The notes under the pieces are model-generated. The model worked only from the letters and a program-made list of their open reading frames with translations. It did not search any database and was not told the origin of the DNA. This document shows, one piece after another, positions 1 through 63,254 of a stretch of 64,000 nucleotides of DNA (the stretch's first letter is position 1; every line of letters starts with the position of its first letter). The position numbers and the translations under genes are program-made. The DNA comes from Polychytrium aggregatum (Eukaryota; Chytridiomycota; Chytridiomycetes; Polychytriales), in assembly GCF_025602895.1 (NCBI RefSeq), contig NW_026516240.1, positions 62,001 to 126,000 on the forward strand, given 5' to 3'.

Positions 1-243
1 GTGGAAACATATGCCTGTGTTGCTGTGCAAAGTGGCTGCCATTGTTCTTTGTTCTTGAAGCCCATTCGATATCTCGGCTATCGCCTGTTGCACGCTGGTT
101 TCACGATTGCTTCAAAGCTTCGTGCTGTCATTGTGCAGGCCTGTGATTTAAAGCCCAGCGATCGCAGCCTGCATGTATGAGCGACGACTAACTCCTAGTG
201 GCCCGTATATCGCCTTGCGGACTGAATTCCTCTCGATGACCGA

Positions 244-5627: not shown

Positions 5628-8273
5628 ATGGTGATTGTCGCCTTCAGCGCTGCTCTGCTGTGGTGTCTCTGCTCAAGCACCCTCGCGCTCCCGCTCTCCC
5701 GGTCTGCCCACAGTCCATCTGCCGTTCGACTGGATCGCAGAAATGGCGAAGCCGGTGGTCCGCAGTACTACTGGCCGTCCTCGGCCAGCTACACCACCAA
5801 CTCGTCGGTCCTCAACCGCAACTCCAATCTCGACCGTCTCCCTTTGGTGTGGTCCAAGAACAACGACCTTGGTATGGACCAGGTCAAGATCGTTGCTCTG
5901 GACTACCTCACCCGCACCCTCTCGGTGCAGTCCAGCGAGATATTCATCTCCTCAGTGTAAGAGCCGCAGTCGTCCAGAACCAGCACGAGATATGCCTGTG
6001 TCTCGCTCAAAGTACTTTGATGCGCACGGTGCTCTCTGCCATCATTATACTCACGCCGTCCCTGCATCTGCTTGCCTTCCTGCTCCTTGAATGTTTCTTC
6101 GTTGCCGATCCAGCCACCAGGACTCGTTGACGGGCATATACCACTTCTACGTCAACCAGGTCGTCGAGAAGACCGTCGTTATCAACGCCGTTAGCAACCT
6201 CAGCATCGATCGCTTTGGCTCCGTTGTGGCCTTTGGTTCTTCGTTCATCGTCCGCAAGCAAACCATTGTCAAGGAAGCCATCCAACTCAGCCCCATCGAC
6301 GCCGTCGTCGCTTTCGCTCGCCATCTCAACGTTGCCATCGACAGCAAGTCGCTGAGGCTTCAAGTGGATGACACCCACACAAAGGCCACCATCAGCGGTA
6401 CTTCGGCCCTCACCAGCAAAGCCATCCGGGCACAGTTGCGATACTTCCAGACGCAAGATTCGGTCCAGCAAGTCTGGGACCTGTCGGTTGAAACCGAGGA
6501 CGACTGGTGGAACGGCTTTATTAACACCCGCGACGGCTCGCTCGTCGGTCTGTCCAGCTGGACAAGCCGATTTGCTAGCAAGCGGGCAGCTAGCGTCCAA
6601 GCAGCATCATACCGGATCGTGCCTCTCACCCAGAACGATCTGCTACACGGTGACCGAGCGCTTGTGTCCAATCCTTTCGATTTGACCGCCTCCCCCCTCG
6701 GCTGGCACGACACAGGCGATGGCAAGGGTTCCCAGCCGACAACGGTCGGAAACAATGTTCTCGCCCAGGAAAACCGAGAGAACCTTCCTGCCGTTGGAAG
6801 CAGCAACCACAGACCCACAGCTGCCAACTTTGTCTTTGACTTTGCGCTGAATGACAAGACACAGCAGCCGCCAGACTATCAGGATGCCGCCATCACAAAC
6901 ATGTTCTTCCTTGCCAACACCTACCACGATTTGCTCTACCACTACGGCTTCACCGAGTCCGCCGGCAACTTCCAGCAGAACAACTTTGGCAAGGGCGGCG
7001 CTGGAGCCGATCCGGTGATTGCGAACGCTCAGGATGGCTCGGGATTCAACAACGGTGGGTGCCTGAGTGACTTGCAAATCTGGCCGAAACCCCCACCCAA
7101 CGTAGTCAGCGGAGGCGCTGCAATCATTGGTATCTCTAGCGACTGTGTCTCGTCTGCCAATCTCCATCCTCACCGACTCACTTGCTTGCTTGATGTTTTG
7201 CGTCAACTATATATCCACAGCCAACTTTGCCACCCCGCCGGACGGGCAGTCGGGACGCATGAAGATGTTCATCTTCACCTCCACCAATCCAAACCGCGAT
7301 GGCACCATCGAGGACGACATTGTCATGCACGAACTGACCCACGGCCTGACCAACCGACTGACTGGCGGCCCGGCACAGGCAAACTGCCTGAGCCAACTCC
7401 AGTCTGGAGGCATGGGCGAGGGCTGGTCCGATTTTTACGCCATCACCTTCCGCATGACGGCCTCCAACACGCGCAACGACAACATGGTGGTCGGGCAATA
7501 TGTCTCTGGCAGTGCCGGAGGCGTCCGGACGTTCCCGTATTCAACCAGCCTGTCAACGAACCCAGAGACGTATTCATTCCTGGCCCGCAGCGACACTCAA
7601 GAAATCCACAAGATAGGGGAGATCTGGGCCTCGATGCTATATGAAATTTACTGGTAAGGACACCGGCAATCTGCCGCTGAATGGTGCTCGGAATGCTCCG
7701 AGGGTGTCGGACTCGACCCGGGCGATGCTAATACCATTCACAGCCAAGTACCTGACGCCGTACTCACTCGCCCACCCTTCACTGGTCTCTCTCTTCCACA
7801 GGAATCTTGTCGACAAGCTGGGATTCGATCCCAATCTGCAGAATGCCAGTGGCGGCAAAGGAAACACCATGATGGTGAGTTTGCAGGCAGATGCCGGTTT
7901 GAGGCATCGCGCTCTGTCATGTTCAGTTATGTCCAGCGAGCGAGCCGTCTTTCTGATGTTGCCCTATCTTGTCCTCGCTCTCTTGCGGCACGGCCTTGCC
8001 GATTTACAGCTGCAGATCCTCACAAATGCACTCAAGCTTCAGCCCTGCAACCCCACTTTTGTTCAAGCCCGAGACGCAGTCTTGACCGCCGAGCTGAACC
8101 TGAGCAAGGGCAATAACCACTGTGAGATCTATGCGGGATTCGCGAAGCGGGGACTGGGCTTTTCAGCCAAGGACGACGGCAGCTTCAAAGACGCCTTTGA
8201 TTTGCCGCCAGAATGTGCTGGCAGCGCAACGACCCCCAAATCGGCGATCCGGTTCATCAACGTCGGCAACTGA
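5628..8273 (+). CDS. Fungalysin (M36 zinc metallopeptidase), secreted
   Basis: Five exons (5628..5954, 6121..7054, 7221..7653, 7802..7874, 8010..8273) give 676 residues, typical of a fungalysin prepropeptide. A signal peptide runs from MVIVAFSAALLWCLC to about residue 20. An FTP-like propeptide (DSLTGIYHFYVNQ region) follows, then the M36 domain. The zinc site is complete: H457 and H461 in HELTH, and third ligand E487 in GGMGEGWSDF. The C-terminal part keeps LKLQPCNPTF, a family hallmark. Fungalysins are secreted endopeptidases that degrade extracellular protein and are often multi-copy in chytrids. The first donor is read as GTGTAAG at 5955, chosen to keep phase with the downstream DSLTGIYH segment; the other introns have standard borders. 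Expected to pass through the Golgi, where the Vps10 receptor in this window works. Confidence 0.93.
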
Positions 8274-10137: not shown

Positions 10138-13100
10138 TCAAGACTGCAGAATCGTTTCGAGGGCAGCGTGGTAAGGCGGAATGAACTGGAAGACCAGAGA
10201 TCGACTTGTGACGACACAGGAAGTCAGCGACGGATCGAATCGGATGTCCGACAGAATAATGGCGCCATTGGCGAGCTGGACCGATGTGAAGTATGTTGGC
10301 TGTGCAACGGGATAGAGCCAGAGCGACGAGAGTGAGAGAGTGTGTGAGAGGACACGGCCAGACACAAGTCCGTGTGCAGTATGCGAAATGTAGTTCCGGG
10401 CACCGATCGCATGCGATAGTGGATACGCCATCGTCACATAAGCGAGAACGAGGGCTCACCTGGCCGTCAAAGTTGCGGTGTGCAACAGTGTAAACATTAT
10501 TCATCGCCAGCTTGCTGCGGATGGTATCGGTGGAGATTCCACCTTGCGAGACGTTGGCGATCTCGTACTTTTGCTCGAGGGACTCGGGAAGGTTCTGTTT
10601 CCACATCCCCAGCCAGAGATTCTGGTCCAGGCCTCCGTTCTCGGTGAAGAGGATATAGAGCGGGAACTGGGCCTGGAAGTACGAGATGCCGGTGTTGGTC
10701 TTGAAGGCGACCTGCAGGTCTGTGGAATGGGCAGTACAGTCGTTAGCGCTTGATGGCAAAGGGGATCTTGCCGAATCGTCGGCTGATTAGAGGCATCATT
10801 CCTCTGAATAGCTCAGTCGGCATAGCTCAGTCGGCATAGCTCAGCCGGCTGCACGAAGAATGGCTGGATGGGCCCAGGGCATCAACTGTCCGCATCGGCA
10901 GCTGCCACACAAGACGGCGGTGCTGAACTTACTGTTGGCGGGGGTGCTTGGAGCCGTCGCTCCCTCGGTGTTCAGTTCCAGAGACATCTCCACGGACTGG
11001 TTGGGCAGCAGAGGCGTACGGGCATCAAGAGCGCGGGCCGGTGCCAGACCGAAGCTGCAGTCCAAAGGCAAAACAACTGCGGGGTCAGTTTCGATTGCTC
11101 GAGCAGCCCAAGGTTTGGGGTTGGGGGGGGGCTTGTTCAAGTGTATAGCGGGGCCATTATGGATGGTCGAATCGCTCCAAGCGTCCTCACCCAGCACTCA
11201 CGACCAGGCGCATAGGTGCGCTCGCGCAGACAGTGCTGTCTGGAACTTGCACACCCACGCTCCCTCCCATTCCATTCACAATACGAACCTGTTCTTGTTG
11301 AAGAGAATGCCAAAGTCACTCAGGGGCTGCATGGCCTTGTTGGAGAGCGTCATGTCCAAGAACGGAATGCCGGATCTGCGCACGACTAGAAGGCAACGAG
11401 CAAGTGTCAGTATAGCCATATGGGAGGCATTGAGTCTGGGGCCAGATAACATGTCGCCACCGGCCAAGTGCATTTGCCATGGCTGTGCTTACACGTTCCC
11501 TGAAGCTCGAGGCCTTTGCCGGTCTGTGCATTCATCAAGAGAGTCTTTGACAGCACGAGCCCGTGCTGGGTGTTCAGCGAGTAGAGATCGCCGGCAAGCT
11601 GCGCCGTGGGCGTCGGCACGGCTTTGGGAGGCGAGATGGCGGGTGAGGATGCTGCGGAATCGAACGGCTTGGCTGGCGAGCCGAAGGGTGTCGAGAGCTC
11701 TGCGGGCTTCTTGGGGGCCGAGTCCAAATTGACGCTGTCGACGCTCTTCTTGGCAAAAGGATCCAGCACAACATCGGAGAGCGAGTTGCCCAAGGCCGTG
11801 ACGTCCGGTTGGGTGCTGCCGGTGGTGTGGACGGCCGCGCCGTAGGACATGGGGCTGTATGCTGCTCCGCCCAAGGTGCCGGGGCTGCTGCCGAACGGGT
11901 TGCTGTTGACGAACCTGGGGGCCTCGTTTGTGGGGATATCGAGCCCAACGAAGGGGTTGTGCGCAGCGGGGATCGACGAGGTAACGTTTGGAACGCTCGC
12001 TCCGGCTGCCCCGGCGCCGAGTTGGCCGGTAAGATGCGTGCCCAGTGCCAACGCCCCTCCTGCGGGACCGGCGCCCAGGCCAGAGGCGAGGCTGTCGTAA
12101 GGCGTCGATACGCCGGTGCCAACGTTGTAGAGGCCACCAGGTCCTCCCTGGAACGGATTGGGCTGGAGCGAGGCCAGATCGGCGGCGCCGCCACTGAGGA
12201 GTCCACCAAAATCGCCGCCCAGGGGGGTCCCGCCAGCATGGCTGCCATAGGGATTGACGTACTGTCCATAGCCACCATCTGCCACCATGCCGAAGGCGTG
12301 TGCGTCCGACGCCGCGGCATCTTCGGTGTCGATCTCGAGCAAGTTGTTTCCGGGCATGCCGATCTGAGGCTCAGCAGAGAGGCCAATGTCGTTGACGTAC
12401 GGGTTGTTCATGAAGCCGTTGCCGTAGATGTTCTGGGCGGCCTGGGCGCTAATGAAATGGGAAGCAATGTCACGTTGGATGGGGGTGTGAGACAACAGAA
12501 TGATCGAAGCTGCAGGTGCACAAAATGCCCTCTCATACACAGGTCAGCCCTGAAGGTGCTTCGGCACACATCGCAAGCGACTGAGCCGCTCAGCAAGCAC
12601 AGAGCCGTGTCCAGCATCGAGTCGCGGGGACCTGCAACATAACATACTCGGCAATCTCCTTCTCGAAAGGATCGTGGGCACCGCGCACGACCAGGGCTTT
12701 GGACGGGATCACCTTGAGGACCCGGAACCCGGCCGTGAAGAGCTGGGGCGGCTTGTGGTAGATCGAGGCCAGCGTGGAGATGTGTAGATGGAGCTCGTCG
12801 ACGATGGCGGCCTCCATGTTTTCGGTTTCGGTGGAGATGCCTGGCTTCTCGGACAAGACGATCGCCTGTATTGCACGCAGCAGATTTGCACATGGGGCCG
12901 TGTGCGAGCCATTTGTGTCCGGAGAGCGGGGGTGTTAGGACCATGCGTGTATCACATGCAGCGAGAATTGGGTCGAATCGGCTACACGGTGCCCGCGGCA
13001 GACGGATGACCATGCCATACGCACCTTGGCAGCAACAGGGTCAGTCGAGAGCAGTCGCCAATAGATGAATCCGCGGTCGCGCAGATCCGGGTTGTCCACA

Positions 13101-16100
13101 TCCTCGGTGGCCCACTTGAGAACCTTCTGGATCAGCTCCTGACCGGCCGTCGGTCTCATGATAAACAACTTGACCGTGGCCGTGAGTAGCGCCAACTGCA
13201 CTTCGGCCGGCTCGTCCTTGAAGCTGCCGAGGAAGTGCGTGAGCAGCTCGTCCGAGTTCTCGATGCGATCCGAGTACTGGCCAATGATCCAGATCATCGA
13301 TGCCTTTGCCTCGGGCTCGTCGAGGCTGTCCAGGTTGTCGCACAAGGTGCTGATGATGGACTCGTAGCGGTTGGGGTACTTGCGGAAAATATCCTGGCGG
13401 TCACAGATACAGCGTAGATATTCAGACACGGGTGTCCCAGGACAGCAGACAGTCGCGTTGGACTGGCGCTGGCTGCTTGTATATCCAGACAGGCGGATCC
13501 ACAAAGGCACCAGGGCCGGTGCATCGCCACGCAGTCGTTGCTGCTCATCCAGCGATCAACTCTCCCCGCTGTGCCCTACCTTGATTACGATCACGGCTTC
13601 CTGCACGACATAGTTGACCTTGGTCTGGATCAAATCCACCAAGGCGGCGATGCACTTGTTCGCTGAAATCTCGATCTTGATGGCACACCGGCCGATGCAG
13701 CGGACAGACTTTCGCACAAAGTCGACGTCAACCTCAGTGGAGTATCTGTGGGCGTAATATCGATGAATCATGCCGGAAGGCAGAGGCAAAGACGCGGCAA
13801 CAGAACATACATTGACGGAGGCTGTTAGATACGCAGTCAGGAGGGTATACTCGGCTGCCCTTGGCTCCTTTGGCGTGCTTTTCACTCAGTGTGCGGCGGA
13901 AAGATGCGGGGTAGGGGTTGCAGAGGCCCCAGTCCACAACAAGCACTGTGTCGACGCGGTACGCACTCTTTCAGCTCAGGCAGGACTTGATCGATGTTGC
14001 TGTCGTTGGAGAGTCGGAACATGATGTCGAGCTTGACCAACTTGACGTAGATCGGGTCGTTGTACTTGCAGAAAAAGACCTTCATCTCGTTCTTGAGAAA
14101 GTCCGGGCGCCTTTGCATGATCAGCACCATGTTGCGGAGCGCGACGTATTGGACCTCGGGCCCGTTGTGGAGCAAGGTGACTGTCGAGCAGAGCATGGTT
14201 CATTCGAGAACGAGCCAAGGAACAATAATCAGCACAAGAGTCCCCCAAGGAGTGCGATGGGCGTTGGCCCGAACGGAGGACAAAGCCAACTCTCCACATC
14301 CAGGCTCATACCAAGAGGCGGGCCGAGCTTCTTGTAGAGCTGGTCGACGACGTCGTCCTTGGCGATGTAGTTCATCAGATAGATAATCACACGAACGGCG
14401 GTGAGGACAACAGCTGAATTGGAGTGCTGAAGACGAGGCACAACACGCTCGGCCAATAACTCGGCGTCACCGGGCTCCTGGGGCACGACGTACATGATGC
14501 CCTCAAGAATATACGCCTGGCCCCACCTGGAAGAAAGCAGGATAGAGAGTAATCAACATCAGCTGCCAGGGACTCTACTCGAGCTGCGAGCATGCCCATT
14601 TGGTGGTGCAGGTATGCCCAGCGACGATTCGAGGAATCCGTCCGGGACAAACGAATCGGCGAGCCTCCAGGACCTCCAGTACCTCCAGGACCTCCAGTAC
14701 CCACTTGTCGACCCGAAGCATTTGCGCCGAATCGTGCCCTCCCCCGAATGCCGTATGCACTCCACATCCATATACAATGCGTGACTGCCGATGCCCGATC
14801 CACCTGCCACGCTGTCTCGCTTGGTCGATGGCTAGCGACATTACTCTGAGCACTCGTTGATTGCCGTCAGGAGCTTGTTGGCCAAGGGGACGTCAAAGTT
14901 GAGCTCGAAGCTGGAGGACCTCTGAGAGATCTCGCTCAGAGCCGCAACGGCGTTGGCGACGACCTGTGTGCATACGGGATTATCAAAGAATGAGCAGGCT
15001 CGAGGTCAGTTCGGCTTGAATTTGAAAGAATGTGCCTTCCCCCCCCCCACTGAAAGTCTCCAGGATGCGTGGATCTCACAGTCGCTCGATTCAGGAAGTA
15101 ACATCACAGAACGAGGACGCTGCCTGCAACATCGGCCGCACACGGCAGTTGATCTCGTACCGTAGAGTTGTCGTGGTTCAGCAGGGCCCGAAGCTGCTCC
15201 AGGAAGCCCTCGTTCTCGGTGAGATTGCGGTCATACAAGAACAGCTTGGCCACAGCCATAGCCGAGGTCTTTGCGACGTACGGATCGCGATCGTTGATGG
15301 AGTGACGCAGGGGACCGCAGAGACAGTCGACCATCTTGTCGACTTGGATGTATCCCATGGTTCGGATGGCCATGCCTCGGATCAGAGGATTGCTGTCGGA
15401 GACATCCTAACAATCCACGAGCATAAGGCAGCGGCAGTGTTAGTGCCGAAGGGGGGGGGAGGGCGTGCACGTACACAGCGAATAGGAGCACCAGCTCGGC
15501 CGAGCACCACAGAAAGAGCCCCGCGAACACACGCCAGGGGTGCTCAGACGTGCTGTTGTTCGAAACGCTCGCGTTGGCTTTGGGAGATTACCTTGATGAA
15601 GCCGCTGATGGCCATGTCGACCATCTCGGGTCTGGAGCGACTGTAGTTCATCAGATAGAGATAAACCATCTTCTTGACCTCGAGGAGCGGGCAGTTCATC
15701 GAAGCCACCACGTCGGGATAGAGAGCCGACATATCGTTGCCCATGGTCATGTTGGCAACGATCTTCTTCATGGCGATCTTCTTTTTCTGGAACTTGGAGT
15801 CTTTTTTGTCGGAAACGAGCTCCGCCCGGAGCTCCTGGATCTTCCCTATAACCGAGGAACAGTAACGGATTCAGCCGAGGGCGCAAGGGGTGCCAGCAGC
15901 ATGGCGAAGCAGCCTTGCGCCGATGCCAATGATCGGCGGGGCGCTATATTCCTGTGGGACTGGGAATATCCCTGGGATAGTCGAGGGCGAGCTGATTCCA
16001 TCATCCCCCCCTCCTCAAAGCAACACGCACGGCCAAACAGCGGCAAAAGCGAGGCGCACACGACGCAACAGCTGCCGACGGAGCAGCGTGGCAAGAGGCA

Positions 16101-18037: not shown

Positions 18038-20126
18038 ATGAAAGTCGCTGCCGTCTCGGCCGTTGTTGCCGCCCTCTGCGCCTCTGCCAGTGCACACATG
18101 TGCATGAGCAACCCTGCTCCCCGTGGTCTGCCTCCCTCCGAGGCCATGAATGGCGTGGTAAGTATCACAGCCCCGTGGTCTCTTGGTTTGCAGCACCCCT
18201 CGATCTGGCGGTGATCCGTTTGGGCCGTTTGGGCTCTCCACAGTGTAACCCCCACCCGCGCTGACCTCGTCCGTTGCTGCTCCCAGGGAATCCAACCCTA
18301 CGACTACAACATTCTGAGCCCGCTCGATGCCACCAACGGCAACGGCCGAGCCTTCCCTTGCCAGAGCAAGCCCCAGACCCCCAACACCTTCACCCTCCAG
18401 GCCGGCTCCACCCTCGATGCCGTCATCCGCGGCACTGCCAACCACGGTGCGTTTCTCCCCTGTCTCTGCCCCTGCCTCCGCTTCCGCCAGAAGGCAGTCC
18501 ATGGTAGCACCACCTCCACGAGAGCGTCTGCGCTGTTGGCACTGCCTCTCATCTTGTACTGTGTCTGGCGCATCAGCTCTCTGACCCATCTCTTTCACCA
18601 TCGTCAACCCCACAGACGGTGGCCACGTCCAGTTTGCCATCTCGTACGGTATGTATGAGCACACGCTGCGTCCCGTTGCCGTAGTGCACCTGCAGCTTGA
18701 TATCGCCGCGGAGCCATGTCCATGTCCTTCCAACTGATGCACCTCTCCGCTGCTCCCTCTATCTTGTCCCTGCAGACCAAACGACCTGGGTCGCCATCTA
18801 CACCGTCATCCGCACCGCCCTGCAGGCCAACACCACTGATGGTACGAACCAGATCGCGGTCCACCCAAAGCCATGTCGACTTGACACCCACCAGTCGTCG
18901 TCGTCGTCCCTGTCTGCCCATCCCAATTGCATTCCCTGACCCTTGAACTCCCTCCTCGCCTCGTCCTGCAATCTAGGAATCTACCACTTCCAAGTCCCTA
19001 TCCCCAGCAACATCCCCAATGCCGACCACGCCATCTTCTCCTGGAACTGGATCAACGCCATGGGCAACCGCGAGTACTACAGTGAGTGGTTCACGACCGA
19101 GCCCTGTCATTCAATCACTTTTGCCGCGGTCTTGTCTGTGGCACTCGCTACTGGCTCCGTTTGCTCTTGTTGTATCGTCGTCTTCGAATCTAACTCTTGT
19201 CGCGCCATCCTCTCTTTTCAGCCAACTGCGCTGATGTCTCCATCGTCGGCGGCTCCAACACTGGCTCGCTTGTTGGCCCCCAGCTCTTCATCGCCAACCT
19301 GCCTGGCTATCCCACCATCCCGGAAATGATTCCTGGTGCCGATGATGGCTCCAGCTACCTCGCCGCCCGCCCCACCATCACCATTGCCCCTGGCACACGC
19401 CCCACCGGCAACCCCTCCACCACCGTGGCCCCTGTCACCACCAAGTCCACCACCACCACCACTAAGCCCACTACCAAATCGACCACCACTACCACTACCA
19501 CCACTACTACCAAGCCCACCACCAAGTCGACAACCAAGTCCACCACCACTACCACTACTACCACCAAGGCCACCTCGACCCGCAAGACCAAGACCACCAA
19601 GCCGGCCAAGTCGACCAAGAAGAGCAAGACCACCAAGTCGACCAAGCCTGCCAAGAAGACCAAGAAGACCAAGACTACCAAGACCACCAAGCCCGCCAAG
19701 TCGACTACCACCACTACCACTACCACCACCACCACCACCAAGCCCCATACCACCACCAAGTCCACCACTACCACCACCACCACCACTACCACCGCCAAGC
19801 CCACCACGGTCAAGTCTACCACCACCACTACCACCACTACTACTGCCGGTCCTCAGCCCACCAATATCCCCACAAACGTTCCTTGCGTCCCCAAGGACCC
19901 CAGCCAGATCGCTGCCTTCTGTGACTCATTCAAGCACAATGTTTTCCAGCCGATCTGCCTGACTCCCGAATACTCCTACACCGTTCTGTTCAACCGCTGC
20001 TACGCTGACACCGGTGCTCCCGATGACGGCGAGGTCACCCTTGGCATCCGCCACTACAACGTCTGCGGTGGCAGCACCAGCCACGACTTTACCTCTCAGA
20101 TGTCGGCCCTGTTCAAGTACTGCTAA
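18038..20126 (+). CDS. AA11-like lytic polysaccharide monooxygenase with long Thr/Lys-rich linker and C-terminal Cys domain
   Basis: Six exons (18038..18157, 18287..18446, 18616..18648, 18776..18841, 18977..19081, 19222..20126) give 462 residues. A 19-residue signal peptide ends at Ala-Ser-Ala, so mature residue 1 would be His20, as needed for the copper histidine brace. The second brace His is H93 or H97 in ANHDGGHVQF, which aligns with the H-GGG-x-CQ motif of AA11. LSPLDA, a Cys after FP, GNREYY and NCADV also match AA11-type enzymes. LPMOs cleave crystalline polysaccharide oxidatively; AA11 members act on chitin. From about residue 220 a linker of some 150 residues is nearly all Thr, Lys, Ser and Pro, with a strongly basic central block. 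A short domain with conserved-looking Cys closes the protein; I do not recognise it. AA11 versus a sister family is uncertain; secretion is clear. Confidence 0.82.
19430..19850 (+). repeat. Low-complexity ACC/AAG triplet tract (LPMO linker)
   Basis: Imperfect ACC/ACT/AAG triplet runs encode the Thr/Lys linker. The antisense frames give long Val- or Gly/Leu-rich open readings that are artefacts of this composition. Confidence 0.85.
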
Positions 20127-47113: not shown

Positions 47114-47234
47114 CTGCATTCGATGCAAGTGCATTCGATGCAAGTGCATTCGATGCGAGTGCATTCGATGCGAGTGCATTCGATGCGAGTGCATTCGATG
47201 CGAGTGCATTCGATGCGAGTGCATTCGATGGACT
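47114..47234. repeat. 15-bp minisatellite, about eight copies
   Basis: Unit GTGCATTCGATGC(G/A)A, the first copies with A and the later ones with G at the variable position. It lies about 100 bases past the Vps10 stop, probably in the 3' UTR or flank. Confidence 0.95.
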
Positions 47235-47336
47235 GCATGATGCTCTTGTATTGACGAGACTATCATCAGAAAGTGTGTCGTTCTCGCCCGGAGGGCCAGC
47301 TGAAATGCACCGTCATCTCTGCCACGGCGAGTTGGC

Positions 47337-50300
47337 TCAGTAGTCCTCGAGCTCTTCCAGGCTTGTGTCGTTTTCAAACACTAGGAACTCATCGCCCTGC
47401 ACCGCAGAGTATCCCTGGCCTGCGGACGGCCGCCGGCCGCCGAGACGGGCGACCAGCCGACCCCACGAAGGGCCGAGCACTCCGCGCAGCCTCTCGCCAA
47501 CCAGCTCGCTGGCTTCGCGGATGTATCCCCAGGCAGCAGCAAAATACGCGGTGGCACGCTCCAACATGTCGTCGGCATAGCGACCGGTGCTTTCGCCCAT
47601 GCCGGTTTCGTCGTCGGGGAGCCTGCAAGAACAGATCCAGATCCGGGCCAATCTAAGGTCAGACCGCCGCCAGACACATCGAGCACAGCTCCGCTCTGCA
47701 TCTCCATCCTGCACACATCCTCCATCCTGTACAGATCCTCCATCCCGCACACATCCTCCATCCTGTGCACATCATCACCTGTGCTCGTACCTGATGCGGC
47801 CGGTGTTGCCGTACTTGCGCTTGTACTGGACAAAGCAGAATGTCACGCCTCCAGCGAATCCTGCCGAAAGGAGGCCGTACCAGAGCACGGTAAGGACGGT
47901 CGAGGAGCCTGTAACGCGGGGATGAGACGCAGTTTAGTATGGGCACACCGATGCAGTCTCCCCACCCCTTGGCGCCCTTGCTTCGCGACTTACCACTTGT
48001 GGTGGAGCAAGTCCGGTATTCAGCTTCATACTCAGACTCGACGCCGCCCGAGCAGCCGCTGTTCTTCAGCTTGATGTAGCCCTTGGTAATGCGCATCTTG
48101 CCGTCGCGGCAGACCGACTGCAGGCGCCGCTGGTTGGGGGTCGGGATGCACTTGCCGTTGCCGCTCGGGTCGAGGTAGTAAAGGTTGTCGCACTCAAAGT
48201 CCTCGCGCGTGCACTCGCAGCTGGTGACCGACTGGGGCACCCTGTAGTTTTCGCCAATCTGGCAGTCGCGGTCGCGCTTGCGGCGATAGTACTTGACCTG
48301 TATGCAAGCAAGAAAGCAAGTAAGCAGGCAGTCAGGTTAACGCATAAGCAGGCAAGTGAGGGCAACCCGCCGCCAGCTCTCCCCACAGCTGCGAGCTTCG
48401 ATCGCAATCTCGTCGTTCCTACCTCTTTGCCAAAGGCACACTTGCCGCCGTTGAGCTTGGGCAGACTCCACAGCTCGTAGTCGCTGGCCTCGGGGTTCTT
48501 CTCGTTGAGCTCGCACTTGCGCGTCCAGATCTTGGAAAAGTCGAGATGGACAGCGGCCATGCCGTGGAAGCTCTGGCCTCGGTCGCCGCCCGATACACGT
48601 CCAAACAGGATAAAGTGCGACTGCATTCCGTGCGGCTCGGTCACCAGATGCGTCACTCGGAACTTGACGCCGCTCAGTTCGCCCGTGGTGATCTTGTAGT
48701 CCGAGAAGCTCTGGCCCGAGTTGGTCGAGTACCTATCAACCGCGGCAGATTGATCAGTGCAAACCCCCATCGAGAGCCAGCCAGCGTCCAAGTGCATGGC
48801 ATAATCAAGGCGGCGCTCAACCTCAGGGCACAATGCTGCAAAGGCAACACAACTCTCTCTCTCCAATTTGCTTACTTAATATAGTCTGTCGACTGCTCGT
48901 CGTTCACAAGCAGCATAATCGAGCCGTGGTCTCCAAACTCGTAGAGGTGTGCGTCCTTCGTGATTTCCGTCCAGGTCTGTCCCGCGTCGTTCGACAGGAA
49001 CACGTCGCCGTGGTTGTATTCCGTCAGGGACGAGCCGACATTACCGACGCCCATGATCAGTCCGATCGCTGACGACGACGAGAACATATCGTTTTTGTCG
49101 CGCCGTTCCGTGAACGAGTGCAGATTCAGGTAGCACTCGGATCCTTCGCAAGAGTAGCGGGCGCCTTGCGAGTCGTGGCTCGGGGGTTTGAGCGTCAGCC
49201 AGGTTTCACCTGGAAGGAAACAAACACAGGTCAACACCGACCCATAGCGGCGCCTGTCGTCCGAGATGGGCTGCGATCTACACCTGCACTATCGCTCATC
49301 GTGGGCTTACCCTCGTCATAGGTGATTACGGTGCGGATCGATTTGGTCGCTCCGTTGAGCACCTGGTTGGCATTCTGCACTTCGTTGAGAAGGGCGATGC
49401 CCTCGACGCCTTGCATCTTCTCATAGTCGACATATCTGTTTAAATCGACGGAGAAGTATCGGCAATAGCATCAGCATCGGGACGAAGCAAAGATTCCGAT
49501 CCGCATTGAATCACCCAATGGCCGCCGGCGTGGATTGCAGATTCAGTCCCCCCCCCCATTTCATTACGTTTTCCTGTGTCAACCCTCGTCCCTTCCCTCA
49601 ACCATGCCACGTACCCATCGGTGTTGCGGTTCGTGTGATCGCGCGCACGGGTAAAAATGGTGCCGTTTGCGTTGGATCGGAAGAGAGCACCAAACTCCTT
49701 GCCGCGCAGGGTGTTGACAAAGACATCGACATTCAGGAATCCGGTGTGGCTGTCCAGGACCGTGTAGCCGTGCTCGGGGACGACAAAGTCGCTTGGGAAA
49801 ACCGCCGGCGACCAGTTGACGCCGTCGCGGGTGACTTGCAGTTCGATCTCGCTCTTCTCGGGATGTTGCTGAGTGGCAACGCATCAAACAAACCATCACA
49901 GCGGAAATGCATGAACACGTCAGTTCAATCGACGTCGAAGTCGATGGGGATGTGCAGGCGAAACGCTCGACACTCAGCCATCAGCCATCAGCCATCAGCC
50001 ATCAGCCATCAGCCATCAGCCATCAGCCATCAGCCATCAGCCATCAGCCATCAGCCATCAGCCATCAGCCATCAGCCATCAGCCATCAGCCATCAGCGGC
50101 CAGGCGCGCGATACTGCACCACCTACCACAGCTGCGATCATATACTCCTCGTTGATGACCAGGCGGAAGCCGCGCTCAAACAGCCGTGTCCAGGTCCGGC
50201 CCAGATCGTTGGTGACCGACAAATCGATCGGCATGCGTGGTCCAAATAGAATCTGGCTCCCCTTCTTGTCTCGATAGGCCGTACAAAACACCGTGTCCTT

Positions 50301-53300
50301 GTTGGGCCCGTTGAACTCGGCGCCCCGGCCCCAGAGGCAGCTTCGGGTATATGAGTCGATCTTGTACCAATGCTGTCCGTGGTCCTTGCTGTAGAAGGTC
50401 TCGGTGTGGCAGTTGGTGTTTGTGCTTGTGTCGCCGCAGTCGATGCCGGCCGTGAACAGGAGCCAGTCAGGCTCCTCCGGGTGCGTGATCAAAGGCACGG
50501 CATCATAGAGCCCGGCAATGGGCGTGACATTGGGAACCTGGAAATGGTGGAGCGTCTTGCCCTGGTCGTCAGAGTAGTACACCACGGCGCCCTTGCGAGC
50601 CAGGAAATATGCGCGTTTGGGACGGAACGGGTCCTGGTAGATTTGCTGGACTGGGAAGCTCTGCGAGGTCAGCATCTCCTTCCATTCGATGCCGTTGTCG
50701 TGGCTCTGCCACAGATTGCCGGCCACGTCGAGAATCACGATGGTCGAGGTGCCGTTGTAGTACATGTACTCTTGCAGAGAGTGCTCGAACAGCCGGGTAT
50801 TCATCACGATCTCGCCAGTGCCAGCGACAAAGTCGTCGCACTCGCGCTCGATCGTATGAGTCTTGTCGAGGCCGCCCTTGCATCGCGACGCAGAGAGCTT
50901 GCGGTAGCCAGAACGGCCCTTGTATGTCTTGCCCTTGGGACACTTGGCCGGCTGCTGCGGGTCCTTGCCGTACAACACGCACTTGCCCGTGGCATCTCGC
51001 CAAAAATCAACATCGCTGCGGTGGTCGAGAGCAACAGCGGCGTCAGGGACACATGCGTGCGGTCGGCGTACAGGGCTGCAGCATCGATCAGAGGGAATAG
51101 AGGGCACCGCCGGGTAGGTGGTGGAGAGGCTGACGCTCACCATTCGTAGTCCGACTCGGAGCACTCGCAAACCTGAAGGTTCTGTTCCAGCGACTCAAAC
51201 TCGTGTCCGATATAGCACACAGCCTCTTCCTTGCGGCGCCAGTATTCGATCTTTTGGCCAAGGAAGCAGCGCGAGCCGTCGGTGGCCTGGTTGGGGTCAT
51301 GCAGCGACCATTTCTCAAAATCGGCCGAGTCGCCCTTGGCGTTCTTGTCAAAGACGCACTGACGTTCAAAGAGCGGCGTCATGTCGATTCCGATGAGGAC
51401 CAGTACAGGGTCCTCAAAGATCTCTTCCCACGACGATCTCGGGTACATGCCCGTGATGATGAACCTGCGGCCGGTGCCGTCGGGGACGCTGGAGATGCCC
51501 GTGACCTTGATGTTCTTGTCCGAGAACCGGTGCTCCGCCCAGTGCACGCCAAAGTCCCAGGAGTAGCTGTGGTGGCAGAGTCGTCTCGGGGGTTAGTCTC
51601 TGCAGATCCGCGGCCGGCCTGGTGGTGCTCACAGTACCGAAAAAAACACTGCCGCCAATCGCTACTCACGAAATGACATTGACGGGCTCTTCGTCATTCA
51701 CAAGCACAATGATGCTGCCATGGTCGCCCAAGGCCCACAGGTGCGCCTCCTTGCGGATTTCGGACCAAGTCTGACCGCCATCGCGGGTCATGAACATATC
51801 CGACTCGGTGTACTTGGCCAGCGTTCCGCCAACGCTTCCAACGGCGACCATTGTTCCGGGAGCACCCTTGGCACTGTGGCGAGTGACGATTTCGGTGCGG
51901 TCGAACTGCGCGGCAGCGTAGAGGTTGAGGTGGCAGCTCTCGAGGCTCTTGCCGCTGCAGAACTCGCTCCCTTGTGAATCGGTCTTGGGAGGGATGATGA
52001 CCTTCCAGGTGGCGCCGTCATCGTAAGTGATCATGGTCTTGATTTGCTTCTTGGCACCAAGAGTCAGCTGATCGACATTGGCGATCTGGTTGGCGACAAC
52101 AATGCCTTCGATGCCATGCATCTTTTCCACATCAACTGGAGGTAGCAAGAGTTATAGCCATTGCCCACCATCGGACGAGCGGAATGGGTGAGAATGGGTG
52201 AGTCTGAGAGTGGGCGGTGTTCAGATCTCGCAGGCCTCACATCGACGCGCAGAGCTCGCATCGGCGCGCAAGAATCAAATCAATCGCCGCCTCTTACCCT
52301 GTCCAAACATGTTGCGGTTGGTGTTGGCCAGGCTGCGGGTGTAAAAGGTTCCGTTTTCGTTTGAGCCGAACAGTGCACCGTACTCCTGGCCAAACTTGAG
52401 GGACTGGGCCACGTCGATGAACAGGCCGTTGGAAGTCGATTCCAAAATGGTATAGGACTGTGAAGCGGCATCAACATCACATAGCACAAATTAGTCGCAA
52501 GTGAGCCACCACGATCCTCTGGGAGGCCCCGTCAAGATCCGTGGCCGCTCTGCCGCCACTCAATAGTCAGCCGGACAACTGGATGTGCGTGGCGCCTGAG
52601 ACCGATGCACTCGCTGAGCCATGTCGGCCACATCCACCACGGATCAACGCTGTCTAGCCACGCAGACTCACCGCCTTCTCGATGTGGATGTTGGGTGGGA
52701 ACTGAGCATCGACAAAGGTCACGCCATCGGTCGAAGCCTTGAGCTGCAGGTCGTTTCCGTTCTCCTGCACGAGAGCGCCATGAGACAGACCGTCAGAAAC
52801 ACAGCCGCAGTCACAGCATGCGATGCATTTTTGAGATGCAACTGCTGGATCGCATCTCCAGCCAAAAGCAGTTTGAGCAGACCTGGCCACTCACCACTGC
52901 GACCACCAAAACGCCCTTGACCACATAAAAGTTGGCGACGCCCTTCTCCAGGAGCACGCGCTTGCTCTTGCCGCCGTTCTGGATCATCACGAGCTGCATC
53001 GGGTTTTCCTTGGTGCCGTGTCCGCCATAGGCATCCTGGGGCGTGTCTCCGCCCTTGTACTTGAAGCCCATGCAGTAGACGGCATCGTCCGGGATGTTCT
53101 TGGTGGCAAAGCCAAAGTCGCGGGCCCACACACACTTCTGGACCCACGTATCGACCGTCGTCCAGCTCTTGCCGTGGTCTTTGGTGATGTGCGCCGTTGT
53201 GAAGCACGAGCGTGCGTCGGGGCAGCCCTGACCGCCGCTGACAAAGACGAGATAGTCCGGGTGGTCCGGGTGGTAGTCCAGGATCTCGACGCCGAGGGTG

Positions 53301-56300
53301 TTGTATGGGGCCGGCGTGTCAAGCTTCTTCAGGGACGACTCCGAGTCGCCGAGGCGGTCGTCTGTGTACCAGGTGGCTTGTCCGCTCGATACGAAAAAGT
53401 AGGCGCGGGTCGGGACGCTCTCGTGGATGCCGGCGAGGAGCACGCCGCCCTGCTTGGCCAGCGCCGTGGACAACCGCCAATTGAGGCCCTCGTCGTCCGA
53501 CTTCCAGATCTCGCCATTGTTCTCGGTCCTCAGCATGACGTGGCTCGAGTTGGGGAAGTAGTAGAAGCGGTCGATGTCGTCGCTCAAGGTTGTGCGGGTG
53601 ATCTTTGGCTGGTTGCCCTCGGGCAGCTCGACCTTGCCGTTGCCGCCGTTACCACCATTCTTGCCATCGTCGAGCTTCTGGCAGTCCTTGAGGACAGGCT
53701 CGGCTCGGTTGACGCCACCTTCACAGACGTTCCCTGGGATCTTGCGGTAGCCCGACTTGCCTTTGTACTGCTTGCCCACTTTGCAGTCCAGCGGCTGGTC
53801 GTGAATCGGCCCCGCCTGGATGCACTTGAGGGAGCTGCTGGTCTGCGGGTCAGGCGCAAAGTTGTAGTCGCACTCAAAGTCGTCGTCGGTGCAGGGGCAC
53901 TTCTTGACATCCAGCTGGAGCTTGTGGAACTTTTGTCCAATGTAGCAGTCCGCGTCGGCCTTGCGACGGTAGTAGCCAGTCTCCTGGCCCATGACGCAGC
54001 TGCCTCCATAGGCCTCCTTCTGGGGCATCCACTCCTCCACGTCGCGGCTGGCACCGGGGTTTTGAGGATCAATGTCGCACTTGCGCGAGAGGGTCTTTTC
54101 AAAGTCGAGGTGGACGACGTACAGGCTGTTGAGGTCGGATGCGTCGGTGACGAGGATAATCATCTTGGTCGAGGTCGACTCGGGGTCGATCATGGTCAGC
54201 CAGGGCTGCCAACTCTTGCCGCCGTCAAGCTGGAGCGTGTGCTTGGTCCAGTCCTTTCCGCGGTTCCAGGAATACAAAACATAGTCGACAGAGTCCTGAT
54301 CGGGAACAAGCACGATGAGCGAGCCCATGTCTCCGGATTCGTACTTGTGCGGGCCCTTGTAGATCGCAGTCCAGGTCAGGCCGCCGTCGGCGGAAAGGAA
54401 CGTGTCGCATTTGCGGTATGGCTGGAGATACTTGCCGACAGAGCCGACACCGATGATGATTCCTGGAGCAGACATAGTGCTGAAGACGCGACCGATGTTG
54501 TGTGGACGGGTGATCGAGTGCAGATGGAGCTTGCAGGAGGTATCGGTGGTTGGGCTGCAGTCCCAGCTGCGGCCGTCGGCATTCTTCGCGGGGGGCTTGA
54601 GCGATGTCCATTTGGAACCCTCGTGGAAGGAGATTTTGGAAACCAGACGCTTGTCGTCCTCGGACCGGTCACCGGACTGCATTTCCTCCCAGTTGTCGAC
54701 GACGTTCGCAAACAAGATGCCAGAGTAGACGGGGGTCTGGATACGCTCAAAGTCAACGAGGCCGGCTTTGTTGCGGTTGGTGTGTTCGAGGGACGACACG
54801 AAATACGAGCCGTTGGAGTTGGAGTACAGCAGCGTTCCGAACGACTGAGCCTGGCCGTTGGGCTTGCCGCGCAGGATGTCGACCATAAGCGAGTGCTTTG
54901 ACGATTCGAGGATGGTGTATGCCTGTGGGACCAAGACCGCGGGAGTCGAATCGCATGAGAGTCGAGGCCAAAGGTGCTTTTCGGTATGGCTCCGTCCAAA
55001 CTGTGCCAGTGTTGCATCTCCAGCCAAAGCAATCAAGCAATCAAGCAATCAAGCAATCAAAGCGGTCACTCACCATCTGGTTGGTGCTGATCGCAGTCGG
55101 AAATTTGGCACGCTCAAAGTCTTGGCCATCGGTGCTGACATAGAGCTCATGGCCTTCGTTGTTGGGCTTCATCTAGAAAATGGTCAGCGAGTGCATGATA
55201 TTGAGTATACAGCAGCAGCGAAGCAGATGTACATGCCATCGCCTCTGATGGAGGTGAGAGCGGAGGCCGAAGCAGCCGGCGGATGTCCTACCGAGACCAC
55301 AACGAGGTACTTTTCAATCAGACCAAGCGAAACCGCGCCACCGTTGATGGAGATCACGTCCTTCTTGTCCCCAGCAAAGAAAGTCGAGGAGCGAACGAGA
55401 CGCAAGTCGATGATGTTCTTGGACGACTGGCTGCCCTTCTTTGCAGAGTCGGGGAACTCGGTGCAGAAGATCGTGTCGGTCGGGGCATTGTCGAAAGCAG
55501 CCGAGCCCAGGGCCCAGGTGCAGTCCGAGACATAGCTCAGGAGCTTGGACGGAGTGGTGCGGAAAAAGTTTTCCGTGTAGTAAGCCTGTTGGAAGGAGAG
55601 TCGGCGTGCGCTAAAGTCAGCGTTCCACGGACGTACCCTGCAAGCCAGGGGAATAGACCCGATGCAAGTGGTCGAGCCATCGAGAAATTGGGGCAACGGA
55701 AGCCCCAGACAATCGAGCGGGGAGAGGATATGAACCGCAGCGATGGCAGAGTGCTCAAGAACGGCCTCGAGGATGACCCGGCTTGGATGGCTTACCACTT
55801 GGTTGCACTGCAACGAGCTATCGCACTCCTCGCCAAAGTAGATCATGTAGCCGGCCCGCTTGGCGTGGAAGCGGATCAAGGACCCAGGGGCAAGCGACGA
55901 AGGGGGCTGCGGTGTCGTGAAGGAGTCCCAGTTGAGACCCTTGTCGACGGTTATGTAGTGCTTCTTGTCCAGAGTGATGACAACGGCCTGTCGCAGGTGG
56001 GTGGGCCGAATCAGTGAGATGCACAGATAGTGTGGAGATGCTCAAGTGTATGCACCCCTGCTAGCCACGCCTCGACGCTGCTTGGACTCAGGCCGCCGGC
56101 GTGCCTGGTACGGATCGTGACATACCGTGCTATCCTCAAAGGGATGTTGGATCAAATCGTAGGCAGACGAGTCCGGAATATCGGTCACTTTGGACCAATC
56201 CTTGCCTTCGTTGGCAGACCGCCAGACCCTTCCAGTGTATGCCTCAAGGTATAGTATGACCTGCGAGCGAGCGAGGCAGGGGTCAGTGGAATCCGGGAGT

Positions 56301-56568
56301 GTGCGCTTGACCTTCTGAATCGGGCTGCGGAGCCACATCGCATGACCGGAGCGACTCGGCCGGCCATGCGGGAAGGTCGGCGCCGGGAGGAGCTTACAGA
56401 GGAATCCTTGAAATAGAAGAGCTTCTTTGGAGCGTTCTCAAAACGGGTGATCTTGGTCACCAAGTTGCTGTCTTGCGGAGCGGCATGCACAAGCGACAGA
56501 CCGAGCAGACCGAGCAGCAGCACGGCGAGCCACGGCAGCCGCACCAGGCGAGTCCTGGACCGATCCAT
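47337..56568 (-). CDS. VPS10: Vps10-type sorting receptor with three VPS10 domains
   Basis: Eighteen exons stay in one frame (6684 nt, 2227 residues): 56398..56568, 56126..56260, 55796..55987, 55292..55585, 55074..55172, 52895..54922, 52672..52764, 52298..52457, 51670..52135, 51141..51566, 50127..51015, 49615..49868, 49311..49435, 48876..49209, 48423..48732, 47994..48297, 47791..47908, 47337..47622. A signal peptide (WLAVLLLGLLGLSLVHA) starts the protein. Three VPS10 propellers follow (about 30-575, 715-1330 and 1410-1980), each closed by a 10CC Cys module with a YRRK or YWRRK motif and a C-x-C...FEC, SDYEC or FEC segment. A single membrane span (about 2096-2116) leads to a 95-residue tail with YSAV, a YxxPhi sorting signal, and an acidic EFLVFENDTSLEELEDY end. 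Vps10/sortilins carry hydrolases from Golgi to vacuole with retromer recycling. Yeast Vps10 has two such domains; three is unusual. Confidence 0.93.
47685..47775. repeat. Imperfect 18-bp repeat in a VPS10 intron
   Basis: Four to five imperfect units of TCCATCCTGCACACATCC type in the last intron of the VPS10 gene (47623..47790). Confidence 0.8.
49974..50096. repeat. Heptanucleotide minisatellite (CAGCCAT)n in a VPS10 intron
   Basis: About seventeen perfect copies of CAGCCAT inside the intron 49869..50126. Frames through it read SHQPSAI repeats and are not coding. Confidence 0.95.
55027..55062. repeat. 8-bp tandem repeat in a VPS10 intron
   Basis: Four copies of GCAATCAA near the donor end of the intron 54923..55073. 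Confidence 0.85.
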
Positions 56569-57139: not shown

Positions 57140-58923
57140 ATGGCCCCGCACCACCCCGCCAAGGCCAAGCCCTTCCACAGCGTCCTGCGCCAGCACGGGC
57201 TGACTCCGCGCAAGATCTTCTTTGGTCTTATCGTCGCATGTCTGCTTCTGATTCTGCTCTGGGACAAGCCTGTCATCGGTAATCCTATCCCTGCGCTCGC
57301 CATTTTTGTTTGCTGTGGTGTTGTCCTGTCGCTTCTTCTGCGACGACGACAACGACTGTGCAGTCTACAGAAACTGCAGTGACCATCATCTCGACACCGT
57401 CTGCAATGTCTCTCGCTTCCGGTGCCTGGCTTTCAGCACGTCGTGTCCATCGCATTGCGTCGCATTGCGTCGCATTGTGTGGCATCCCGCGCTGGCTGCT
57501 GTCGCTCGCCAAGCCCCCCTTCCGCGGCCACGCTGCCTCGTTTGCCTGTGCATCGCGGCCCTGCCGGCATTCCGCTCATCGTTGCTTGGTGCTGCACACC
57601 TTGACCAGATTCTCTGTCAAGCTCTTGTCGCAACCGTCCCAAGGATCGCCCTGCTGTTCAATATGCCCTCATGATCGACGCCGGGTCGACCGGGTCCCGA
57701 ATTCATGTCTATCGATTCAACTACTGCAGCGGTCGCCTGCCCAGCCTCGAGAATGAAGACTTTATCCAGATCAAGCCCGGGCTTTCTTCGTACGACAGCG
57801 ATGCCGATGCTGCCGCCCAGTCGCTCGACAGTCTGCTCGACAAAGCGCTCAAGATTGTTCCACCCGAGCTCCAGCGCTGCACGCCCGTCGCCGTCAAGGC
57901 CACTGCTGGCCTGCGGCTTCTCGGCCAGGAGAAGTCGGACCGCATCCTCAAAAAGATTGAAGATAGGCTGCTCACAAAGTACCCATTCAAGCTGATGCCC
58001 ACCAACGGCGTCGCGGTCATGGACGGTGCCGACGAAGGTGGGTCTCGGCATGCGAGAGCTTGACAAGCGTCCGCAAGCACATCGGCATCTAACACTCCCC
58101 GCCCATTCGTGATACTACAGGTGTGTTTGCTTGGATCACCGTCAACTACCTCCTGCGCCGCATTGGCCAGGCCAAAAAGCAGCCCACTGCTGCCATCATG
58201 GATCTCGGCGGTGGCTCGACCCAGATCGTCTTCGAGCCCTCCACCGGTGTAAGCATGCCCGACGGCGAGCACAAGTACGTCCTGCCCTTTGGATCGCACA
58301 ACTACACCCTCTACCAACACTCGTACCTCGGATACGGACTCATGGAGGGCCGCAAGAAGATCATCAAGGCATCGCTCCACTCGACCAACCCCGAGAACCC
58401 TTGTCTGCCATCGGGCCACGAGGAGAAGGTCAAGGTCGACAGCGGCGACGTGGTTGTTCGCGGTAGCGGCTCGCACTCCTTCAGCCAGTGCAGCCAATTT
58501 GTCTCCGAGTCCATCTTTTCAAAGTCCACATGCACGTACGACTCCTGCTCCTTTGACGGCGTCTACCAACCCCTGCTGACGTCGAGCTTTGCCCAAAACG
58601 ACATCTACGCCTTCTCATACTTTTACGACCGCGCTGAGCCTCTCAGCATGCCCGCTGACTTCAAGATCAAGCAGTTCTCGTCCGAAGCCGAGAAGGTCTG
58701 CAGCGGCTCCACCGACGTCGACGAAGTGCGCAAGGAGCCTCGCTGGTGTCTCGACATGGTCTTTATTCACAGTCTCCTGACGCTGGGCTACGACCTGCCT
58801 GCCGAGCGCGACATCAAGATTGCCAAGAAAATCGATGGCGTCGAGACAGGCTGGTGTCTCGGCGCCACCATCCATATGCTCGACACCATGACCAAGAGTA
58901 GCTCTGGCGTGTGCCGTGACTAG
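57140..58923 (+). CDS. GDA1: Golgi guanosine diphosphatase (GDA1/CD39 family)
   Basis: Three exons (57140..57278, 57609..58037, 58121..58923) give 456 residues. It is type II: a short cytosolic N-terminus, membrane anchor IFFGLIVACLLLILLW at about 27-42, a short stem, then the apyrase domain. Apyrase-conserved regions are present: DAGSTGSR (70-77), ATAGLRLL, DGADEGVFAW across a junction and MDLGGGSTQI. Gda1 hydrolyses GDP to GMP in the Golgi lumen so that GDP-mannose import can continue by antiport, supporting glycosylation of cargo such as the secreted proteins encoded nearby. The intron 1 acceptor at 57608 was chosen because it alone gives a phase-correct link from the anchor to YALMIDAGSTGSR. 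Confidence 0.94.
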
Positions 58924-61658: not shown

Positions 61659-63254
61659 ATGAAGGTTTTCTCTGTCAAAGTCCTCGCTTGTGGTAGGCTG
61701 CCTCAATGCACTGGAGCGCGGCCACTTCTGAAGTAGAAAGACATGTTCCGCAGGATGCATTTTCTGGAGCGGTCGTGTGTAGGCGAGCCTGGGTACTCTG
61801 TGCTCGCCGGATAGCGCTCGTACTGCTCCTCATATTGTGAATCGTATCTTAGGCGCCGTCGCTGTGGCTTCAATGCTGCCACCGGCACTGGCAAACACTG
61901 TGTTAAACTCACGAGGTAAGCAGCGCTTTGAAGACCAGCCCGGTGCATCTGGGCGAGGTACGGCGCTGGAGACTGACCAGCAGCACTTTGGCACATCGCA
62001 CTGACCTGAAGCTGCGGCGACTCTGTCTTGTCGGGCCCGGTGCGGACAGATCCTTCTTTGGACCTGACGACTCTCCGCACCTACCTGAACAAAATCAACC
62101 AGTCCCAAGCCATCCAGATCGAGAAGAGCGGCAGAGATGTCAACTACCACTACCAGGGCGTCATAAACGACCCCAACTTTGCTTCCCTCCACAAAGCCGC
62201 ACAGACCTACATGGGCAGCCAGGGAATCTCCCCAAACGATCTCCAAAATCCTGCTACGCTTCAAACCGTTGTGAACAATGTTCAGGTATGCCCGTGCACT
62301 TGTACTGCACACATAGCGGCTGGCCAAAACCGGCCGAGGCTGTGGCTGCATGCTCTGGGCCGTCGAGGCACATTCGCTGCACTGGCGAGAGCCACTCTCG
62401 GTGCTGGTGTGCGCATATCAGCCCACGATCCTCGCATATTGTCAGACTAAGCCACTTCTCGCCCAAACAGACCGCTTCTCCGACGGCAAACTCTGAGGTC
62501 GTGTATGCAGCAGTGCTGCCGTCGTCCTTCAGTCTGATCAGCAGCAACCGGGTCGGCGCAGTGAAGAACCAAGGCGGCTGCGCCAGCTGTGTGGGCTTCT
62601 CGACCTCGTCGACACTCGAGAGCACCCTCAAGACCCAGGGGGTCAATATGGTCGTGTCGGCCGCCGATATTTTCTTCTGCGTCGGTTATGCCGATGCCAG
62701 CTGCGCGAATGGCTGGTCGATCGACACTGCTGCTCGCAAGGTCAGCCAGTACGGGTTTGTGTCGGACAGCTGCTTTGCGTACAAACCGGTCCAGCAGGCA
62801 TGCACCTTCGGCTGTCCCCAAGGCCGCCACCTTGGACTGGTCTCGCATCACATCCCGAGCACGGTGGAGGCCAAGCGACACATTCTCACCAACGGCGCCG
62901 TGCTCACGGCCCTGACCGTCTGTGAGTACCAACCCATCCCGCAGCTGCCAAAGTAATGGCCGCACCTCCATATGCGTCGAATAGGATACTGACACATATC
63001 TACCCAATCACTCCGTCTCTTTGTGCTTGCCAGACGAGGATTTTATGAACTGCTGCTCGAACAACCAGGTGTACCATCAAGGTGCCAACCAGCCCCTTGT
63101 CGGAGGACATGCCGTCGCCTGCGTCGGATGGGACGACACCTTGCAAGCTTGGCTCTGCCAGAACTCCTGGGATACCTGGTGGGGCACCAAGGGCTTCTTC
63201 TGGATTGGATACGGCCAGAGCGGCATCATGGGCGATATGTACGGATTTGTGTAA
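61659..63254 (+). CDS. Secreted papain-family (C1) cysteine peptidase, paralogue 2
   Basis: Five exons (61659..61692, 61853..61915, 62050..62285, 62471..62921, 63034..63254) give 334 residues. The signal peptide is built from the first two exons (MKVFSVKVLACG + AVAVASMLPPALA). The pro-region ends NDLQNPATLQTVVNNVQ, aligning with paralogue 1. The catalytic triad is intact: Cys151 in QGGCASCVGF, His287 in GGHAVACVGW, Asn305 in CQNSW, with Gln145 for the oxyanion hole. The two proteins share intron positions after the signal peptide, after the pro-region and before the region leading to the catalytic His, so they arose by duplication with inversion. Divergence within the pro-region is much greater than in the peptidase domain. 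Extra Cys (CC at 268-269) in this copy suggest a different disulphide set. Confidence 0.9.

Follow-up and report, generated by a model that had tools for sequence, protein, structure and literature searches.

A Predicted Three-Domain Vps10/Sortilin-Family Receptor Encoded by the Chytrid Polychytrium aggregatum

Introduction

Receptors of the Vps10 type pick up precursors of hydrolases in the late Golgi, carry this cargo to the vacuole, and are recycled by the retromer. The sortilins of animals have a single VPS10 domain, and the number of such domains is a large difference between the fungal and the animal members of this receptor family. Yeast Vps10p is described as having a pair of propellers interspersed with 10CC domains, an arrangement termed "type 4" (PMC2716378), and it recognizes the signal QRPL of yeast CPY (PMC7338053). 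Two signals are reported for its cytosolic tail, one of which is YSSL (PMC13133770), while the motif FYVF of the same tail is likened to the FLV motif in the tail of sortilin (PMC9356209). Outside of animals and fungi, the Toxoplasma sortilin, TgSORT, is likewise described as a VPS10-type cargo receptor, with a single luminal domain of 752 residues (PMC11731604).

Here we describe a gene of Polychytrium aggregatum which is predicted to encode three VPS10 units in one chain of 2,227 residues. The gene is located in a stretch of 64,000 nucleotides, referred to as the window. The predicted product has tandem propellers interrupted by 10CC domains, as does yeast Vps10p, but there are three units rather than two (a comparison made by description and not by sequence), and YSAV and FLVF occur in the tail where the yeast receptor has YSSL and FYVF. 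Sortilin, SorLA, and SorCS2 of animals belong to the same propeller-10CC family according to our sequence search; these proteins have one VPS10 unit, and the domains described here are 26.6–29.3% identical to the piece of sortilin used for comparison. The single luminal domain of TgSORT also differs from the three units of this gene, again when compared by description.

Results and Discussion

Gene Model and Domain Architecture

The exon chain was obtained with a dynamic-programming splice model, in which a codon bias trained on exon 6 was combined with GT-AG scoring, starting from the ATG at position 56568 of the original prediction. The best model (score 626.3) ends at position 47337 and comprises 18 exons, including an exon 6 of 2,028 nt, for a product of 2,241 amino acids. 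Two acceptors were subsequently shifted, that of exon 2 to position 56260 and that of exon 12 to position 49868, on the criterion that the alignment between the domains was restored. These shifts, which are choices and not facts, remove 18 residues and add four, resulting in a product of 2,227 amino acids with no internal stops (Table 1). The 18 in-frame exons, the 2,028-nt exon 6, and the 2,227 residues claimed by the original prediction were thus recovered with the same ends, although the length was only reached after the two acceptor shifts. The runner-up splice models score 621.8, 615.8, 615.7, and 614.0; because exons 1–16 are common to all four and the 3′ end alone varies, the luminal part of the gene model is firm. 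The weakest support is for exon 18, which has a margin of 4.5 score units: the second-best model (621.8) has 17 exons, ends at position 47775, and is without exon 18 and so without both of the tail motifs.

Table 1. Features of the predicted VPS10 gene, given as positions in the window; D1, D2, and D3 are the three VPS10 units in N- to C-terminal order.
Feature	Position	Strand	Residues	Exons	Basis and remarks
VPS10 gene, predicted product of 2,227 residues	47337..56568	-	1-2227	18 exons	splice model; second copy on contig C368
Probable signal peptide	56485..56568	-	1-28		hydropathy maximum 2.11 at residues 9-27; end point by eye
D1 propeller (Sortilin-Vps10)	54230..56230	-	68-528	2-6	PF15902, 432.9 bits (D1 alone)
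Intron 4 (D1)	55173..55291	-			intron mapping on domain alignment; coincides with introns 6 and 11 (column 255, phase 0)
Intron 5 (D1)	54923..55073	-			intron mapping on domain alignment; coincides with intron 7 (column 288, phase 0)
Exon 6 (2,028 nt)	52895..54922	-		6	splice model; carries the rest of the D1 propeller with its 10CC and the linker, then the start of the D2 propeller
D1 10CC module (Sortilin_C)	53681..54187	-	543-711	within 6	PF15901, 137.3 bits; ten Cys
D1-D2 linker, Gly/Asn-rich	53603..53680	-	712-737	within 6	read directly
D2 propeller	51494..53512	-	768-1237	6-10	PF15902, 386.4 bits
Intron 6 (D2)	52765..52894	-			intron mapping on domain alignment; coincides with introns 4 and 11 (column 255, phase 0)
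Intron 7 (D2)	52458..52671	-			intron mapping on domain alignment; coincides with intron 5 (column 288, phase 0)
Intron 9 (D2)	51567..51669	-			intron mapping on domain alignment; coincides with intron 14 (column 505, phase 2)
D2 10CC module	50838..51487	-	1240-1414	10-11	PF15901, 129.8 bits; ten Cys
Exon 11 (889 nt)	50127..51015	-		11	splice model; carries the last part of the D2 10CC, a short junction to D3 (residues 1415-1426), and the start of the D3 propeller
D3 propeller	48681..50717	-	1455-1906	11-15	PF15902, 430.8 bits
Intron 11 (D3)	49869..50126	-			intron mapping on domain alignment; coincides with introns 4 and 6 (column 255, phase 0); contains 7-bp satellite
Intron 14 (D3)	48733..48875	-			intron mapping on domain alignment; coincides with intron 9 (column 505, phase 2)
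D3 10CC module	48007..48641	-	1920-2089	15-16	PF15901, 116.2 bits; ten Cys
Probable transmembrane span	47832..47900	-	~2097-2119		hydrophobic, after last 10CC; Kyte-Doolittle 1.53; basic residues next
Predicted cytosolic tail	47340..47831	-	2120-2227	17-18	splice model; exon 18 not in second-best model
YSAV, like yeast YSSL	47400..47411	-	2204-2207		read by eye
FLVF, candidate retromer signal	47376..47387	-	2212-2215		read from sequence

The Pfam profiles Sortilin-Vps10 (1231 bits) and Sortilin_C (361 bits) each match the 2,227-residue product in three stretches. This bears out the three tandem VPS10 domains of the original prediction, where matches confined to two domains would have spoken against them. 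When the domains are scored singly, Sortilin-Vps10 reaches 386–433 bits and Sortilin_C 116–137 bits, in each case over nearly the whole profile and above the curated cut-offs. The ten-bladed Asp-box propeller of the VPS10 family is represented by three near-full-length stretches of PF15902, and every 10CC module (D1, D2, and D3) has ten cysteines; the count of three units departs from the exactly two of the fungal two-domain Vps10p. Of 14 cysteines in the piece of sortilin used, 11 have counterparts in D1, D2, and D3 alike, among them all nine of its 10CC cysteines, and the other three have a counterpart in none of the domains. A profile search of the PDB (E ≤ 0.001) returned 14 distinct sequences, every one of which is named sortilin, SorLA, or SorCS2, with E values from 1.8e-58 to 6.4e-63. 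The assignment of the predicted product as a single three-domain receptor of the Vps10/sortilin family is supported by these matches.

The N-terminus of the product stands out as strongly hydrophobic (maximum 2.11). The membrane-span candidate has a maximum hydropathy of 1.53 (at about residues 2101–2120), which is below the usual line of 1.6 and close to the 1.50 reached by a segment of the D2 propeller (residues 953–971). Its identification as the probable span is based on its position after the last 10CC module as much as on hydropathy, and position is the stronger argument. Together with the probable N-terminal signal peptide, this would very probably make the product a type I membrane protein.

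One Chain in Two Assembled Copies

Both of the domain junctions are located inside open exons (D1-D2 in exon 6 and D2-D3 in exon 11), and the continuity of the chain at the junctions is therefore independent of splice prediction. The gene is also present on a second contig (C368), which matches the window contig (C312) at window positions 4259–64000 in a single 59.7-kb alignment of 99.17% identity. The protein encoded by this copy is identical: its 6,684 coding bases have three silent and no replacement changes, with no indels in the exons, and its introns (2,548 bases) differ by three substitutions and one 14-base gap. We read this contig as the other haplotype, since matches to many other families in the 64.7-Mb assembly also occur on contig pairs, although some are single and one S10 set is triple. 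The two haplotypes have seemingly been kept apart at window positions 4259–64000, and copy numbers in this assembly may often be doubled. A family search of the assembly yielded at least 16 propeller pieces and at least 10 10CC pieces, all of which are within the two copies, and no other VPS10 gene was detected by that search.

The possibility that two or three adjacent Vps10 genes were mistakenly read as one is highly improbable, and was rejected because each junction is contained in one open exon (of 2,028 and 889 nt); moreover, beyond the N-terminus there is no 19-residue window above 1.6, and the best internal window, at 1.50, belongs to the D2 propeller and not to a junction. At the DNA level the gene does not come apart into separate genes, and neither assembled copy has an in-frame stop or a frameshift; the assembled DNA thus gives no sign of two of the outcomes that the original prediction had named as contrary to it. 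The presence of two near-identical copies of the region might suggest an assembly artefact, in which a domain was doubled through mis-joined reads, but this was rejected as well, and is even more remote: the domains are just 31–34% identical and far too diverged for such an origin, and the order of the domains is the same on both contigs, with the three silent differences between them.

Shared Introns and Origin of the Domains

Pairwise identity between the domains is 31.1% for D1 and D2, 33.2% for D1 and D3, and 34.4% for D2 and D3. When introns were mapped on the domain alignment, introns 4, 6, and 11 were found to occupy the same column (255) in phase 0 in all three domains. Introns 5 and 7 coincide at column 288, in phase 0, in D1 and D2 only, and introns 9 and 14 coincide at column 505, in phase 2, in D2 and D3. 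These correspondences were unchanged in all four MAFFT modes. A further candidate pair, introns 8 and 12, was rejected as shared, given that they are of different phase and offset by 5 nt. In total, five pairwise coincidences were observed when five introns from each domain, 15 altogether, were considered (intron 16, which lies at column 722 at the end of D3, was omitted from this test), whereas 200,000 random placements of the introns gave no coincidence in 190,833 cases, one in 8,984, two in 174, three in nine, and never more. The coinciding positions and phases are strong evidence that the domains spread by duplication of intron-bearing DNA, and not by retroposition or independent domain capture. 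Such coincidences between the VPS10 domains of one gene are what is new here, and the shared introns can serve as marks for reconstructing the build-up of repeats of this kind. The original prediction had taken exon 6 as a suggestion of how domains were added; this exon does span the D1-D2 junction, but as an explanation of domain gain exon 6 alone was rejected, because it is one of two junction exons and exon 11 spans the second junction likewise. The three sets of coinciding introns are better evidence.

With regard to the order of events, D2 and D3 each start within a junction exon that is bounded at its end by the column-255 intron, and neither has the three 5′ introns of D1. In a tree of the domains, with sortilin and SorLA as comparison sequences and without the two-domain fungal Vps10, a pairing of D2 with D3 was recovered in 57 of 73 bootstraps (D1 with D2 in 13, D1 with D3 in three). 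This grouping also had the best likelihood of the three topologies and an SH-like support of 0.93; in the AU test, p was 0.281 for D1 with D2, and 0.065 for D1 with D3 with 10,000 replicates (0.04 with 1,000). The test thus rejects neither alternative, with D1 and D3 as a borderline case. A sister relationship of D2 and D3 is favored, not proven. The extra domain was probably gained when genomic DNA, introns included, was duplicated in frame, and the likeliest order would begin with a two-domain, yeast-like ancestor and proceed by copying of its second domain. This is the simplest history in view of the column-505 intron, the absence of the 5′ introns of D1, the same layout of the junction exons, and the favored tree. 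The column-288 intron, which is found in D1 and D2 only, does not fit this order directly, and would require either an intron loss from D3 or another history.

Terminal branches of the three domains measure 0.75–1.07 substitutions per site, compared with 1.00 for sortilin and 1.08 for SorLA in the same tree, and path lengths between the domains are from ∼1.8 to 2.5 substitutions per site, with ∼2.1 between sortilin and SorLA. The 31–34% identity and the resemblance of the terminal branches to those of sortilin and SorLA show these putative duplications to be old.

The best explanation of the locus, in which we have considerable confidence, is a sorting receptor of the Vps10/sortilin family with three complete VPS10 units in one chain, a predicted Golgi-to-vacuole role, and an extra domain probably acquired by duplication. 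A history in which a one-domain, sortilin-like gene was fused to a two-domain gene, with no internal duplication, is considered unlikely: the 26-residue Gly/Asn linker that follows D1, where D2 and D3 are within 12 residues of one another, and the outlying position of D1 in the favored tree are in its favor, but the phase-0 introns at column 255 in all three domains and at column 288 in D1 and D2 fit copies of one gene, even though a tandem pair of related genes would have introns in common too. It is similarly doubtful that the third domain serves purely as a spacer and takes no part in cargo binding. The divergence among the domains, in identity as well as in terminal branch length, is wide enough that one of them could have drifted, yet the ten 10CC cysteines are present in all three domains and the profile scores are similar. 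Also regarded as improbable, at about the same level, is the broader proposal that the three-propeller form is of ancient origin in early-diverging fungi, in which every ring would take its own class of vacuolar cargo and the yeast receptor with two domains would be a reduced or alternative form; an old origin is consistent with path lengths between the domains that are about equal to that between sortilin and SorLA.

Predicted Sorting Role

By analogy with described Vps10 receptors, the three-domain product would most likely act as a receptor for cargo on the way from the Golgi to the vacuole, with recycling by the retromer. It would bind precursors of soluble vacuolar hydrolases in the late Golgi and travel together with this cargo to the prevacuolar endosome, where the cargo would be released, and the retromer would then return the receptor by way of its tail signals. 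YSAV and FLVF, which are candidates for these signals, are separated by four residues and resemble the two yeast signals, each in a resemblance of only four residues. The genome contains matches to the Vps26, S10 peptidase, and aspartyl protease families, which make this ordinary role plausible; the Vps26 pieces are in colinear order on two contigs, and are read as alleles.

The neurotensin-pocket residues of sortilin, which we take to be F281, S283, and R292, are kept in no domain in the alignment of D1, D2, and D3 with the sortilin piece, and the cargo binding of animal sortilin is therefore not transferable to this receptor. Three rings may widen the range of cargo, for which the original prediction had given the secreted peptidases and the LPMO encoded nearby as examples. 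Secreted enzymes would be poor candidates for such cargo, since Vps10 directs its cargo to the vacuole, and proximity in the genome is no evidence of a relation between receptor and cargo.

The open-licence literature matches listed (titles and abstract beginnings) included none on a three-domain Vps10 or on Vps10 in chytrids, and the main text of an article on fungal domain architectures (PMC4102429) contains no word starting with sortilin or Vps10. Searches for relatives gave 83 pattern stretches in viral contigs and 87 in genome contigs, with none confirmed in either; these collections consist of viruses and prokaryotes, and are thus silent on other fungi. The same architecture may be present, unlabelled, in the protein databases of other early-diverging fungi. 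Given that it could exist there unremarked, and that its predicted role is an ordinary one, the three-domain form is regarded as a real but modest variant, which leaves the known mechanism of vacuolar sorting unchanged. Nevertheless, with three old, complete units there is a natural series of one, two, and three rings, in which it can be asked whether each ring takes different cargo or the rings cooperate.

Neighboring Genes and Repeats

Several other families are represented in the window. Matches to the GDA1/CD39 nucleoside phosphatase family (Pfam) occur at positions 57716–58036 and 58123–58896 on the forward strand; if the ATG of this gene is at position 57140 (chosen by eye), it is divergent from the VPS10 gene, with ∼0.57 kb between the start codons. 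On the reverse strand, Adaptin_N pieces (13040–13402 and 15592–15843) and a beta2-adaptin appendage (10454–10720) would, if they form one gene, encode the beta-adaptin of an AP complex, which is possibly a coincidence. Pieces of a fungalysin M36 metallopeptidase are found at 6109–8168 on the forward strand, and the 38 matching pieces on many contigs of the assembly suggest a multigene family. Papain-family C1 peptidase pieces (62534–63251, forward strand) mark a candidate that is conceivable as vacuolar cargo. No match to LPMO families was obtained in the 30 of 80 coding-like window segments that were scanned. A protein segment encoded at 19221–20123 on the forward strand, which has no Pfam match, includes a long Thr/Lys-rich stretch, and its first part may be AA11 LPMO-like, as judged by eye.

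Two satellites accompany the VPS10 gene. A perfect 7-bp satellite, TCAGCCA, is repeated 17.7 times at positions 49974–50097 inside intron 11, and the 14-base gap of the second assembled copy, which is in this intron, has the size of two such units. A 15-bp satellite, TGCATTCGATGCGAG, is repeated 8.3 times at positions 47115–47238, ∼0.1 kb past the stop codon of the VPS10 gene.
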